59,050 nucleotides of DNA, from the NCBI GenBank assembly GCA_012523945.1, contig JAAYSO010000057.1, forward strand, positions 1 to 59,050. Direction: 5' to 3'. Of the stretch, positions 3,399 to 59,050 are shown in pieces. The position numbers were made by a program, and so were the translations under genes. This stretch comes from Bacillota bacterium (GTDB lineage Bacteria > Bacillota > Dethiobacteria > Dethiobacterales > Dethiobacteraceae). The notes under the pieces are model-generated. The model searched no databases and was not told the origin of the DNA. It saw only the letters and a list, made by a program, of their open reading frames with translations. How positions within the stretch are numbered: position 1 is the stretch's first letter; every line of letters starts with the position of its first letter.

Positions 3399-3510
3399 GT
3401 GTGTCCATACCCTTCTTATCTGTCAGGATGATCCTGCAGGATTTGGCACCTTCCAGTATTCTGGGGTTGCCGGGTTTCATCGGGCCAGTCCCTCCACCTC
3501 TCTTGATAAG
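3370..3510 (-). promoter_or_regulatory. SAM-I (S-box) riboswitch with terminator platform
   Basis: Read on the minus strand, the leader begins CTTATCAAGAGAGG, continues with GGAGGGACTGGCCC and GATGAAACCCGGCAACC, then GGTGCCAAATCCTGC, and returns with GACAGATAAG, which closes helix P1 against the 5' end. These are the conserved blocks of the S-box. The aptamer spans about 3412-3510. A terminator hairpin follows (3370-3398), and the start codon of metY lies about 100 nt further on. By family knowledge SAM binding stabilises the aptamer and lets the terminator form, switching off metY-metX. Confidence 0.95.
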
Positions 3511-3521
3511 AATGCAAACTA

Positions 3522-53867: not shown

Positions 53868-53943
53868 GAGCCATTAGCTCAGTCGGTAGAGCACCTGACT
53901 TTTAATCAGGGAGTCCCGCGTTCGAGTCGCGGATGGCTCACCA
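53868..53943 (+). tRNA. tRNA-Lys (UUU)
   Basis: A 76-nt cloverleaf with acceptor arms GAGCCAT/ATGGCTC, D loop AGCTCAGTCGGTAGAGC, anticodon loop CTTTTAA (anticodon TTT), T arm GTTCGAGTC and an encoded CCA end. Confidence 0.98.
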
Positions 53944-53948
53944 TTTTC

Positions 53949-54023
53949 GGCCCCTTGGTCAAGCGGTTAAGACACCGCCCTTTCACGGCGGTAACGCGGG
54001 TTCGAGTCCCGCAGGGGTCACCA
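53949..54023 (+). tRNA. tRNA-Glu (UUC)
   Basis: A 75-nt cloverleaf with acceptor arms GGCCCCT/AGGGGTC, anticodon stem CCGCC/GGCGG with loop CTTTCAC (anticodon TTC), T arm GGTTCGAGTCC and encoded CCA. It is 5 bp after tRNA-Lys. Confidence 0.98.
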
Positions 54024-54183: not shown

Positions 54184-55740
54184 ATGGATAGTGAACAAGT
54201 AGAGAAATTTATTCAGTCAATACGGAAACAAGCAAAAGACTTGGCCGTACACTGGAAGGAATATAGCAAAAAGAAATGGCATGAGGTTTGTACAGGGACT
54301 GAAAATTATAGTTATCGCCTTAAAAAAGGTTTAAAACAAGTTAGAAGCAAAGCTTCAGAATATTTTTGCAATAGTAAACGTTTGGCGCAGGCACATAAAC
54401 GAGCAAGTTTTATGACAATAGCAGCAGCACTGACTTGCGGGATAATCATTGCCGCCGGTGTCGATGCCGGTCAACTAGAAGCACCACCTGTATATGCCGT
54501 TTATGTAGACGGGGAAGAAATCGGCTATGTGGAAAACGAGGAAGCAGTTTTTGCCTGTTTGGAAAATCTACAAACAGAAGCGGCGCGAAAATTAAAGGCT
54601 GACGAAGTTGCACCTAAACAAGTGGTGGAGGTAGTAGCAACGGAAAAACCAGAGGCGGAAACAGATGAGGAAGCTGTGAAGGCAGTTCTGGCCGAACGCT
54701 TGGAGTTTGCACGTTATGCTTACACCATTATGGTCAATGATCGTCCAACCTTAACTGTAGCAACTTTGGAAGATTATGAAACTGTGATCGAAAGTTTAAA
54801 AAAGGCATACGTTACTGACGAGGATGCTACAGTGCAGGCAGTAGTTTTAAAAGATAATGTAGAAGCCAGATTAACTTTAGTTGATAATCCCAGTAAAATT
54901 TATTCGGCGGATAAAGCAGCGGAAATTCTCAAAACCGGTACTGATAAACGGGAAGTATATCTTGTCAGCCGTGGAGATTCCCTTTGGACTATTGCCCGCA
55001 ACTACAACTTAACAGTGGATGAAATCAGAGATGCTAATCCCCATCTGGCTGATCCCGATCGTTTAATGCCGGGTGATGAAATTAACTTATTGGTGGCCGA
55101 GCCGTTAGTTGATGTTTCCGTTACCGAAGAAAAGGTGGTAACAGAAAAAATCAAATATGAAACGGAATACAAAAATGACGGATCCCTGTATAAAGGCCAG
55201 ACGAAAGTACTGCAGGCCGGGGAGTATGGCGTTAAAGAAGTCACCTATAAGATTACCAAGAATAATGGCCGCGAAGTAGAAAGACAGGTTCTGGCGGAAA
55301 AAGTACTGGAAGAGCCGCGGACACAAATTGTAGCCCGGGGAACAAAACCTGTGCCGGCAGGTTCCGGAACGGGGCAGTTTTTATGGCCGGTGGCAGGCAG
55401 GGGCAGAGTTACCTCACGTTACGGCAACCGCAACGGCAGGTTCCACCGCGGGGTTGATATCGGTACCCCCACCGGCTCGGCAATTTTGGCGGCCGACAGT
55501 GGGACAGTGGTGCAAGCCGGTTGGTACGGCGCGTACGGAATCCTCGTGACTATAGATCATGGCAACGGTTATGTGACCAAGTATGCACATAACTCAAAAG
55601 CTTTAGTTTCTGTGGGACAAAAAGTGCAAAAGGGCCAGAAAATTGCCCTTTCCGGTAGTACCGGTAATTCCACAGGCCCGCACTTGCATTTTGAAGTAGT
55701 AAAAAACGGTTCTCATGTGAACCCGTTAAATTATCTCTAG
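54184..55740 (+). CDS. M23 peptidase with LysM and G5 domains (peptidoglycan endopeptidase)
   Basis: A 518-residue membrane-anchored cell-wall hydrolase. Residues 1-75 are basic and cytoplasmic; 76-94 form a transmembrane helix. LysM is at about 257-304 (YLVSRGDSLWTIARNYNLT), and a G5 domain at about 310-390 (EKIKYETEYKNDGSLYKG). The M23 catalytic domain fills 405-518. Its zinc ligands are H421 and D425 in FHRGVD, and H500-x-H502 in GPHLHFEV. It should cleave peptide cross-links of peptidoglycan outside the cell. A degenerate WalR-like repeat is at 54061-54077, and WalR often controls such hydrolases. It is monocistronic between terminators. Confidence 0.92.
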   Translation: MDSEQVEKFIQSIRKQAKDLAVHWKEYSKKKWHEVCTGTENYSYRLKKGLKQVRSKASEYFCNSKRLAQAHKRASFMTIAAALTCGIIIAAGVDAGQLEAPPVYAVYVDGEEIGYVENEEAVFACLENLQTEAARKLKADEVAPKQVVEVVATEKPEAETDEEAVKAVLAERLEFARYAYTIMVNDRPTLTVATLEDYETVIESLKKAYVTDEDATVQAVVLKDNVEARLTLVDNPSKIYSADKAAEILKTGTDKREVYLVSRGDSLWTIARNYNLTVDEIRDANPHLADPDRLMPGDEINLLVAEPLVDVSVTEEKVVTEKIKYETEYKNDGSLYKGQTKVLQAGEYGVKEVTYKITKNNGREVERQVLAEKVLEEPRTQIVARGTKPVPAGSGTGQFLWPVAGRGRVTSRYGNRNGRFHRGVDIGTPTGSAILAADSGTVVQAGWYGAYGILVTIDHGNGYVTKYAHNSKALVSVGQKVQKGQKIALSGSTGNSTGPHLHFEVVKNGSHVNPLNYL

Positions 55741-55747
55741 CAGGATA

Positions 55748-55786
55748 AACTGCCGGTCGTTAAAAATTGCGGCCGGCAGTTTTTTC
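55748..55786 (+). terminator. Terminator after the M23 peptidase gene
   Basis: AACTGCCGG pairs with CCGGCAGTT around a loop of about 16 nt, followed by TTTT. Confidence 0.88.
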
Positions 55787-55838
55787 CCTTTTTAGTGCAA
55801 AAGCAAGTCGTCATCTTGTCACCAAAAAATAAAGAGGC

Positions 55839-55871
55839 TGTAATATTAATGTAATATTGATACTTTATAAT
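55839..55871 (+). promoter_or_regulatory. WalR (YycF) box with positioned promoter
   Basis: TGTAAT-ATTAA-TGTAAT (55839-55855) is an exact WalR direct repeat (TGTWAH, 5 bp, TGTWAH). A perfect TATAAT (55866-55871) begins 10 bp after it, and the second half-site lies next to where a -35 would be, the arrangement of promoters activated by PhoB/OmpR-type regulators. walR itself lies 1.2 kb downstream. Transcription would start near 55879. Confidence 0.72.
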
Positions 55872-55878
55872 GAAATCA

Positions 55879-55939
55879 GGTTTGACCCCCTCTTTTATAT
55901 ATAAATTCTTTTACGTGGAGATTGCCACGTCTTTTTTTT
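55879..55939 (+). ncRNA. Predicted ~60-nt terminated RNA (small RNA or attenuated leader)
   Basis: Downstream of the WalR-box promoter, a hairpin ACGTGG-AGATTG-CCACGT (55913-55930) is followed by C and eight T residues (55932-55939). This gives a transcript of about 60 nt with no meaningful reading frame. It contains ACCCCCTC (55885-55892), the exact complement of GAGGGGGT in the ribosome-binding region of the next gene. It may be a trans-acting RNA or the terminated part of that gene's leader. The rest of 55940-56046 shows no clear promoter. Confidence 0.5.
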
Positions 55940-56046
55940 GCCATAAAACTACTTTCGCCTCAGAGATCTTTTCCCCGGTTGCCTGCTATTCCCAGTGAAA
56001 AGGCACCATAGTGTTTGCTACAATGAAATGCAGGGGAGGGGGTAAG

Positions 56047-56916
56047 ATGTTACCCGGAAGAGCAGTGAAAAAAAAGAAATTTCCTTTGGTTGTGCTTATT
56101 ATCTTGGCAGCCGGGGTCATAACTTTATTACTTTCCGGTGGGCAGGGCAGCATGCGCCGGTGGACTGCCGCTCGGTTGCGTAGTAATTTCCGGCAGTGGG
56201 AAGCGCTGGAGACTGACTATTTTCTCCTGCGTTATCCGGCACAGGAGGCGGCTTGGGTGCGGTGGTGGGCACAGGAGGCTGATGCAGACGCCAGGAAAGT
56301 GAATGAGATTTTTGCCTTTACGCACGAGCAAAAACCGTGGCTCGTTTTAGTACCGGACCAGGCAACAATACAAAATGTTTTCGGTTGGAGTGACAGTACA
56401 CGTGCTTTAGGAGTTTACCAGGCAGATACCATTTTACTGCTTTCCCCTGAAGCCTGGAACTGGGTGCCCCAGGAGCGGCGGATTTCCGTTTTTGCTGCGG
56501 AAAACCCTTTGTTGCATGAATATACACATTTTGTCTTAGATAATATAGCTAATGCTTTTTACCCGCGCTGGTTCAGCGAGGGAATGGCCCAGGTGCTTAC
56601 TTATCACCTGCAGGATCCTGCAGGGGTAGCAGGGGAAAGTTCGAAGGCTGTTGTTTTTCCTCTGACGGAGCTGGAAAATAATTTCGACCGGGCGGAATAC
56701 GAGGCGGCAGCTTACCGGCAAGCTTTCTGTATGGTTAATTATTTGTGGGAACTTAAGGGAACAGAAGGTATAAGAGCCCTGCTGGAGCAGCTTGCCTGCG
56801 GCAAAAATTTTGACCGGGCACTGGAGCAAGTTTATGCCCTGGAGCAAAATGAATTTTTCCGTCTGTGGCGGCAGTGGCAGGAAGAAAATCCTCACCCACT
56901 GGTCATAGATGTCTAG
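56047..56916 (+). CDS. Membrane-anchored zinc metallopeptidase-like protein (peptidase MA-like)
   Basis: A 289-residue protein with a basic N-terminus, one transmembrane helix at about 13-30 (VVLIILAAGVITLLLSG) and an extracellular domain. The zinc motif is H157-E158-x-x-H161 (HEYTH), with a third acidic ligand, E178, in WFSEGMAQ, an arrangement of gluzincins of the peptidase MA group. This implies proteolysis at the outer membrane face, though no substrate is known. ATG 56047 is chosen for GGAGGGGG 4 bp upstream; starts at 56011 or 56023 are also in frame. It lies between the WalR box and walR, the place where walRK operons often have accessory genes. Confidence 0.8.
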   Translation: MLPGRAVKKKKFPLVVLIILAAGVITLLLSGGQGSMRRWTAARLRSNFRQWEALETDYFLLRYPAQEAAWVRWWAQEADADARKVNEIFAFTHEQKPWLVLVPDQATIQNVFGWSDSTRALGVYQADTILLLSPEAWNWVPQERRISVFAAENPLLHEYTHFVLDNIANAFYPRWFSEGMAQVLTYHLQDPAGVAGESSKAVVFPLTELENNFDRAEYEAAAYRQAFCMVNYLWELKGTEGIRALLEQLACGKNFDRALEQVYALEQNEFFRLWRQWQEENPHPLVIDV

Positions 56917-57080: not shown

Positions 57081-57782
57081 TTGGCACGGGGAACGCTTTT
57101 AGTTGTAGATGATGAGAAACCGATTGCTGAGATTCTGCGGTATAATTTGGAGCGGGAAGGTTATACGGTGGTTGTGGCTTATGACGGTGAGGAAGCTTTG
57201 CGACTGACAAAAAGCTGTAAACCGGATTTAATACTGCTCGATATTATGCTACCGAAAAAAGACGGTTTTGCCGTCTGCCGCGAGATCAGGCAGATTAGTA
57301 ATGTGCCAATTATTATGTTGACTGCCAAAGATACAGAATTAGATAAGGTCCTGGGATTGGAACTGGGTGCCGATGATTATGTCACAAAACCTTTTTCTGC
57401 CCGGGAAGTGGTGGCGCGGGTAAAAGCCCTTTTGCGCAGGGCCGTGCAGCCCAGGGTGGAAGAAATGGGTGAAATTCTCACTTGCCAGGATTTAGTAGTG
57501 GATACGGGCCGGATGGAAGTAACGGTTAATAAGAAGACAATTGATTTGACATACCGGGAGTACTTGCTGCTGACATATTTAATGCGTCATGCCGGTTATG
57601 TCATCAGCAGGGAGAAATTGTTGGCAGAAGTATGGGGTTATGATTTTTACGGAGACGAACGAACTGTTGATGTGGCCATTCGTCGCTTACGTGAAAAGAT
57701 TGAGCCAAATCCCAGTGAGCCCCGTTATATTTTAACGAAGCGGGGAGCAGGTTACTTGATGGGAAAGGGTAGAAATGTTTAA
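57081..57782 (+). CDS. walR: Response regulator WalR (YycF)
   Basis: A 233-residue OmpR/PhoB-type regulator. The receiver domain has the acidic pair VVDDE, phosphorylated Asp54 in LILLDIMLP, the Thr in IIMLTAKD and the Lys in YVTKPF. The C-terminal winged helix has LTYREYLLLTYLMRH and DERTVDVAIRRLREKIE. The start is TTG 57081 with GAGGTG 6 bp before; a GTG at 57072 overlaps that site. It overlaps walK by 8 bp. WalR controls cell-wall hydrolase genes in Firmicutes, and candidate boxes occur in this window. Confidence 0.93.
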   Translation: MARGTLLVVDDEKPIAEILRYNLEREGYTVVVAYDGEEALRLTKSCKPDLILLDIMLPKKDGFAVCREIRQISNVPIIMLTAKDTELDKVLGLELGADDYVTKPFSAREVVARVKALLRRAVQPRVEEMGEILTCQDLVVDTGRMEVTVNKKTIDLTYREYLLLTYLMRHAGYVISREKLLAEVWGYDFYGDERTVDVAIRRLREKIEPNPSEPRYILTKRGAGYLMGKGRNV

Positions 57783-59050
57783 AAGTGTACAATGGAAACT
57801 GGTTATTATTTATACACTCATTATTCTGTTTGCCATGCAGTTTTTTGTTGTTTTTCTTTCCCAGGCGCTGGAAGATTATTATTTAGATACGTTTGCCGAA
57901 AATATGGAGTCGCAAGGGCTGCTTTTAGTTAATTTTTTGGAACGTTATCTTACTAATGCGGAAGAACCTGAAGTAATAGATAATTTGGTTTTTGAGTATT
58001 CCCGTTATGCTGATAATATGGACATTATTGTCTTGGATGCTTTTGGGCGCGTTATCTCTTCCTCCACGCAAGAGTACCAGCTGCGTGGCCAGCGTATTAT
58101 CCAGCAGGAAATAACACGGGCCCTGACAGGCCGTCGCAGTGAAGCCGTCCGTTTGGATCCGGAAACAAATGAGCGCATGAAATATTTAGCGCTGCCTGTA
58201 CAGAGCGGGGGAAAAAATTTAGGTGTTGTCTATCTGATTGGTTCTTTGGAACCGCTTTACCAGATCATCCTGGAATTAAAATTTATTTTCCTTACCGGAG
58301 CTATTCTGGTTATTGGGGTAACAGTACTTTTAAGCTTGCTGCTGGCCAGAACCATTACCGTCCCCATTCAGGAAGTAACTGCAAAGGCCAGGCAAATTGC
58401 CCATGGCGACTTTCGCCAGCGGATTGCCATCCGCTCGCAAGATGAAATTGGCAATTTGGGGGATATGTTTAATTATTTGTCGCAGCAACTGGATAGCACC
58501 CTGCGGGAGATTTCCTCGGAAAAAAGTAAAGTAGAAGCAATTTTGCAAAATATGGCGGATGGTATTGTGGCTTTGGGAAGTGACGGTCAAATTTTGCATT
58601 TCAACCCGGCAGCGCGGAAATTGCTGCATCTTGCCCCGGGGCAGGAGCCGACGCCGGAAGTATTAAATCCACTGCTGCAGGCAGTGGATCTTAATGAAAT
58701 TATGTTAACGGGCAGGCAGGAAAGGCGAGAAATTGAAATTACTTCCAAACACCAAATTATTTTGGCTTACTATGTTCCCTTTCAAACACAGGATACTGCT
58801 GAGACTGCAGATCTTTCCGGAGTCTTGATTGTTCTGCATGATGTGACGAAAGAAAGAGAGCTTGCCCGTATACAAAGAGAATTTGTGGCCAACGTCTCGC
58901 ATGAATTACGGACTCCTTTAACCACCTTAAAAAGTTATACAGAGACTCTTTTGGCCGGTGCCATGGCGCAGCCGGATGTTTGCAAATCATTTCTTTCCAC
59001 CATGGAAAATGAAATTGAACGGATGGTACGGCTGGTAAAGGACTTATTGG
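57775..59050 (+). CDS. walK: Sensor histidine kinase WalK (YycG), cut by the window end
   Basis: The first 425 residues of a membrane sensor kinase; the end lies beyond the window. Transmembrane helices are at about 8-30 and 165-190, with an extracellular sensor domain between. A HAMP domain follows (about 190-240, ARTITVPIQEVTAKARQIAHGDF), then a PAS domain (about 250-365, ILQNMADGIVALGSDGQILHFNPAA). The histidine box is FVANVSHELRTPLTTLKSY with phosphorylated His376. The ATPase domain is outside the window. ATG 57775 overlaps walR by 8 bp. Confidence 0.95.
   Translation, partial: MFKSVQWKLVIIYTLIILFAMQFFVVFLSQALEDYYLDTFAENMESQGLLLVNFLERYLTNAEEPEVIDNLVFEYSRYADNMDIIVLDAFGRVISSSTQEYQLRGQRIIQQEITRALTGRRSEAVRLDPETNERMKYLALPVQSGGKNLGVVYLIGSLEPLYQIILELKFIFLTGAILVIGVTVLLSLLLARTITVPIQEVTAKARQIAHGDFRQRIAIRSQDEIGNLGDMFNYLSQQLDSTLREISSEKSKVEAILQNMADGIVALGSDGQILHFNPAARKLLHLAPGQEPTPEVLNPLLQAVDLNEIMLTGRQERREIEITSKHQIILAYYVPFQTQDTAETADLSGVLIVLHDVTKERELARIQREFVANVSHELRTPLTTLKSYTETLLAGAMAQPDVCKSFLSTMENEIERMVRLVKDLL

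Follow-up and report, generated by a model that had tools for sequence, protein, structure and literature searches.

The window, by which we mean the whole 59,050-nucleotide stretch of DNA analyzed here, contains a complete small transcription unit at 55839-55939 on the plus strand, and we judge, at a probability of roughly three in four, that it encodes a WalR-activated, trans-acting small RNA (sRNA; 55878-55939) whose core would pair with G-rich Shine-Dalgarno (SD) sequences and repress translation. Reading of the sequence identified a WalR box, a TATAAT element, a C-rich core, and a hairpin followed by eight T residues, and the RNA gene sits closely 5' of the walRK genes. The box (TGTAAT-N5-TGTAAT, TGTAATATTAATGTAAT; 55839-55855, plus strand) is an exact match, with two TGTWAH half-sites 5 bp apart as in WalR promoters, and a pattern search of the 2.08-Mb genome returned this single occurrence. 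A degenerate pair of half-sites (TGTCAC-N5-AATAAA; 55817-55833, plus strand) lies upstream in 11-bp phase with the box, making four half-sites spaced by 11 bp (TGTCAC at 55817, AATAAA at 55828, and TGTAAT at 55839 and 55850), and the consensus of the upstream half-sites from 79 loci (TGTAAnnAAAAAATAA...) is also in phase. The initial annotation of this DNA had described the exact box, the TATAAT 10 bp further on, and the hairpin terminator; all three were recovered, and its account of the box was correct for the exact pair but incomplete, as that pair belongs to a four-half-site array. The -10 element (55866-55871, plus strand) is conserved in the family, and no -35 hexamer occurs 17 bp from it, where the WalR box overlaps the expected position. 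The RNA gene itself (plus strand, about 60 nt; models R1-R3) has its start placed from the -10 element and its end at the T run. It comprises the conserved C-rich core GACCCCCTCTT (55884-55894, plus strand), a predicted single-stranded anti-SD seed; an A/U-rich linker (55895-55912, plus strand) whose composition (TAATATATA) is conserved; and an intrinsic terminator hairpin with a T8 tail (55913-55939, plus strand), the stem-loop ACGTGG-AGATTG-CCACGT occupying 55913-55930 and being followed by CT8. A coding reading of the same stretch (TTG ACC CCC TCT ...) was ruled out: it lacks an SD sequence, many members have early stops, and the third positions within the core are invariant.

The arrangement is conserved widely. 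The box, -10 element, core, and hairpin were all present at 17 of 17 family loci (the window and 16 relatives), with a core that is invariant in these 17 members and nearly invariant across the phylum. A covariance model found the RNA in 19 of 20 family genomes (E ≤ 2e-14, E-values of such models being rough), and the stronger matches, when read, retain the core, the hairpin, and the T run. Scanning of species genomes for the box plus the core gave 84 stretches, labeled mostly as Dethiobacter, Syntrophomonadaceae, or Bacillota. The RNA was detected by a second covariance model in 88 of 98 genomes of a Dethiobacteria-type class, with two to five gene copies in some of them and matches in other classes too, and by a third model in 138 of 150 genomes of a Bacillales-type order, both labels being assigned partly from gene order; under strict filters, 55 of 398 genomes in a sparse sample of the phylum carried it. 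The proposal of a WalR-type promoter driving a terminated RNA of about 60 nt is supported by this comparison, in which the putative C-rich anti-SD element is the most conserved part and the box, terminator, and C-rich element are kept far beyond the genus. Several genomes, among them G074, G054, and G521, have three to five copies each. Divergent members with the core TTACCCCCTC or TTAACCCCCTC were seen at other syntenic places, 5' of a ClpP-like gene and 5' of yebC (L168/L171 and L170/L172). The f20 genomes (L317-L323, L325, and L332) gave weak matches to model R3 that were excluded for want of a WalR-type box; these are terminated RNAs, often two per genome, with the sequence CCTCTGACCTCCTTT, which contains the 16S anti-SD CCTCCTTT, and upstream they carry TTTAAT/TTAACA-like repeats in place of WalR boxes. 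These may form an sRNA family with a different regulator, either related to the present one or convergent with it.

The sequence of the hairpin varies freely (ACGTGG..CCACGT, GCGCAGTT..AACTGCGC, and GGCACAG..CTGTGCC) with pairing retained, and compensatory changes were found at seven of seven hairpin pairs in alignments of both 78 and 48 sequences. Covariation in the 78-sequence set was 0.742 versus 0.293 after shuffling, with 97.5% of cells paired versus 75% in the shuffles, and in the wider 48-sequence set it was 0.955 versus 0.252, with 95.5% versus 61% paired; as alignments A2 and A3 had been fitted to the model, they are biased toward a hairpin, but slid controls scored far lower. The core is predicted to be unpaired (median probability of 0.95 in 100 RNAs versus 0.66 in shuffles), and it thus has the accessible C-rich seed typical of sRNAs of the RoxS, FsrA, and csRNA kind.

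WalRK is an essential cell-wall regulator in many Gram-positive bacteria, and WalR acts as both activator and repressor of wall genes. The window encodes a YycF-type response regulator, walR (57081-57782, plus strand; NCBIfam YycF, 325.8 bits), for which YycF is the best NCBIfam match though below the cutoff of 340, PhoB scoring 243. The adjoining walK (57775-59049, plus strand), truncated by the contig end, has Cache_WalK (Pfam, 50.0 bits; cutoff 27), HAMP, PAS, and HisKA domains and WalK as its top NCBIfam match. Linkage of the RNA to walRK recurs in several families, in the orders M23-RNA-MA-walRK, M23-RNA-walRK, and M23-NusG-like-RNA-walRK, M23 and MA being the peptidase genes described below; in the Bacilli, walRK is not adjacent to the RNA and the half-sites are more degenerate (CGTAAT-TTTAAC-TGTAAC-TGAAAC). 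Boxes with one or two mismatches showed no excess over control in the genome, so the box alone is weak evidence and its conservation carries the weight. At loci that the RNA model detected by itself, a strict WalR box lay 5' in 29 of 31 cases within the class and a relaxed box in 33 of 44 distant cases, the model having been trained on box-found loci with the box itself outside it; control windows had no WalR boxes, and the shuffle rate was ≤0.4%. PhoP is related to WalR and their boxes are similar, and Pho-activated promoters have four phased half-sites ending about 10 bp 5' of the -10 element, the layout seen here, so the same sRNA could instead answer to PhoP/PhoB and phosphate starvation. 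We consider this unlikely. The pstS promoters of the same genomes have TTTAAC/TTTACA repeats in place of TGTAA, and the RNA-box matrix gives them much lower scores than it gives the RNA promoters, so that the half-sites do not resemble those of same-genome pst promoters; several RNA-carrying genomes, that of the window included, retain the box with no PstS above the cut-off; and the recurring walRK linkage also speaks for WalR. The box matches the WalR ChIP-seq motif of Staphylococcus aureus, TGTHH[N]6WGTNDD (PMC10746227).

The predicted local target of the RNA is a peptidase-MA-like gene (MA; 56047-56916, plus strand; Pfam PF13485, 35.7 bits, cutoff 32.4) that encodes an N-terminal hydrophobic segment. 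Its SD sequence, GAGGGGGT (56036-56043, plus strand), ends 3 nt 5' of the ATG at 56047 and is complementary at eight of eight positions to ACCCCCTC (55885-55892) in the RNA. This match, reported in the initial annotation, holds up. Among 50 crude gene calls made for the window, this SD is the one predicted to pair most strongly with the RNA (-21.9 kcal/mol versus a median of about -12.4). Across 16 family loci the mean pairing energy at the MA SD was -19.0 versus -12.0 kcal/mol for 104 other genes (p 1e-8), the excess persisted after correction for 16S anti-SD pairing (p 6e-8), and a weaker excess was found where walR is the next gene (p 0.005), all p-values overstating independence because the loci are related. 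Where birA is the next gene there was no pairing excess; the sequence AGGGGGTCAA lies 5' of walR at locus L110. The exact eight-of-eight match to MA is not retained in every relative. Seven GAGGGGGT-N3-10-ATG sites occur in the whole genome and include chemoreceptor-like and TRAP-type substrate-binding genes (named by eye from sequence), and GAGGGGGT..ATG sites in the family show a modest excess (163 versus 116 for the reversed control). Searches of the family with target patterns yielded no clearly conserved target. On these predicted duplexes MA is a plausible target in the window's family. Pairing at other GGGGG-type sites would more likely be the main role. The suggestion that the RNA tunes an extracellular protease has the enriched pairing at the MA SD in its favor and would cover no more than one local aspect of what the RNA does. 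A core that bound a protein, or another sRNA as a sponge, rather than SD sequences would account for its being more invariant than a multi-target pairing seed requires and for the failure of the pattern searches to return a conserved target set. We regard such a role as quite unlikely, given that the C-rich unpaired seeds of the Firmicute sRNAs RoxS, FsrA, and csRNAs pair at ribosome-binding sites and that the SD sequences of MA and some walR genes are enriched for pairing.

The 5' neighbor of the RNA encodes an M23 endopeptidase with LysM and G5 domains (54184-55740, plus strand; Pfam), and a terminator scan assigned this gene its own terminator at 55747-55782. Two tRNA genes lie between dnaB and the M23 gene (53868-54020, plus strand), and a SAM riboswitch scoring 100 bits is found elsewhere in the window (3413-3512, minus strand). 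On the other side of the RNA, between its terminator and MA, the family motif and a promoter scan identified a separate promoter-like site for the MA-walRK operon (CCAGTGA-N18-GCTACAAT, with an extended -10; 55992-56024, plus strand). The motif CCAGTGA-N17/18-G(C/T)TACAAT was present in this gap at 17 of 18 family loci with a spacing of 17-18 nt, and since MA thus has its own conserved promoter-like site, the RNA constitutes a separate unit. At one locus (L012, genome G003) the same gap contains a MITE-like insertion built of GGGGTCAGGCTTAACATTTGA repeats, some direct and some inverted, and contig C11 of G019 (L019 and L021) retains the second promoter but has a disrupted MA frame and has lost the RNA unit from between two T-rich stretches. 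The initial annotation had offered an attenuated leader as the alternative to a small RNA. WalR would then start MA-walRK transcription here, the hairpin would be a conditional terminator, and on read-through transcripts the C-rich element would hide the MA SD in cis. In its favor, loci of the window's family have the RNA on the same strand as the operon and 0.1-0.3 kb 5' of it, ACCCCCUC is paired with GAGGGGGU in the centroid structure predicted for the long transcript, and the enrichment of MA pairing would fit as well. The long transcript, however, folds no better than shuffles (z -0.38), the operon has the separate promoter-like site just described, and two relatives (G004 and G013) have lost MA and retain the RNA, which is therefore not kept solely alongside the downstream gene. 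Elsewhere the RNA has other neighbors, lying between gdhA or a sigma-54-type regulator and birA-bioY or, in the Bacilli, between trxB and yvcI-rapZ at all 32 loci read. We consequently hold the leader reading to be very unlikely. The RNA has its own promoter and terminator, a conserved structure, and differing contexts, and because two relatives lost MA yet keep it and its neighbors differ elsewhere, it is probably, as judged from the comparison of genomes, an independent trans-acting sRNA and not an attenuated leader. Single promoter-like and terminator-like motifs are common, but that they came together here by chance has a negligible probability and is refuted by conservation and covariation over distant families.

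We infer WalR binding, the transcript ends, pairing, repression, and targets from these data as follows. Phosphorylated WalR would bind the phased TGTAA repeats beside a promoter that has no -35 hexamer and switch on the RNA. In the product, the core (U)UGACCCCCU(C)UU would lie in a 5' portion free of pairing, followed by the A/U-rich linker and then by the terminator hairpin with its U tail. The core would pair with G-rich SD sequences of the AGGGGGU type and block ribosome binding, and WalR would thereby acquire a means of repression after transcription. A likely local target in the window's family would be MA, the gene that opens the MA-walRK operon, so that the operon would come under negative feedback.

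Taken as a family, these sRNAs are new and uncatalogued, and they belong to a known kind, the C-rich, anti-SD RNAs controlled by response regulators. Rfam 15 (RsaE, FsrA, CsfG, LhrC, and others) gave zero matches at gathering and permissive thresholds, a literal sequence search of the literature returned no match to the core in a bacterial sRNA, and no sRNA under WalR/WalRK control was found in the literature searched. The C-rich unpaired regions of RoxS/RsaE and FsrA pair with ribosome-binding sites, as proposed for the present core; RoxS is longer (115 nt) and is controlled by ResD and Rex, FsrA is controlled by Fur, and their Rfam families were unmatched. Members of the WalR regulon (autolysins such as yocH) have a WalR-box promoter in common with the present gene, whose product is instead a non-coding RNA. 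The csRNAs of Streptococcus, which to our knowledge are limited to streptococci, have a different regulator, CiaRH. Like the RNA proposed here they are short, response-regulator-activated, and linked to cell-wall integrity, and they pair at SD/start regions (PMC4507080). LhrC of Listeria is described as a multicopy sRNA induced by envelope stress via the two-component system LisRK (PMC4132741); the present RNA is also multicopy in places, has no Rfam match, and would answer to a different regulator. In the Bacilli the position between trxB and yvcI coincides with catalogued transcripts. Among the RNAs recorded by RNA-seq of Bacillus licheniformis is BLi_r2828, an independent 52-nt transcript between these genes with an NPKM of 15924, in an entry that gives no function (PMC3871023), and dRNA-seq of Bacillus amyloliquefaciens FZB42 records in the yvcI-trxB intergenic region a homologue of a Bacillus subtilis sRNA candidate, citing Irnov et al. 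2010 (PMC4634765). These RNAs fit the present one in position and size, the two features by which they were matched; the catalogue entries present a transcript alone, with no regulator, target, or wider family (PMC3871023, PMC4634765).

Base-pairing sRNAs typically have a narrow range, whereas the present RNA occurs in several classes of Bacillota with one regulator motif and one seed. RoxS is, according to a 2021 review, the only base-pairing sRNA so far common to B. subtilis and S. aureus (PMC8464778). It is somewhat better than an even bet that an ancient WalR-sRNA module, in which one C-rich RNA of about 60 nt represses a set of mRNAs, predates the split between the Bacilli and the Dethiobacteria-type lineages and that the trxB-yvcI RNA of Bacillus is its orthologue; if so, few base-pairing sRNAs of Bacillota would be as widely conserved. 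The covariance model permits definition of an Rfam-type family, and with an apparent orthologue in Bacillus, the role of the RNA can be tested there. Because the RNA is kept across distant Gram-positive bacteria, Bacillus included, the results suggest that the essential cell-wall regulator WalRK may also act via a small RNA.
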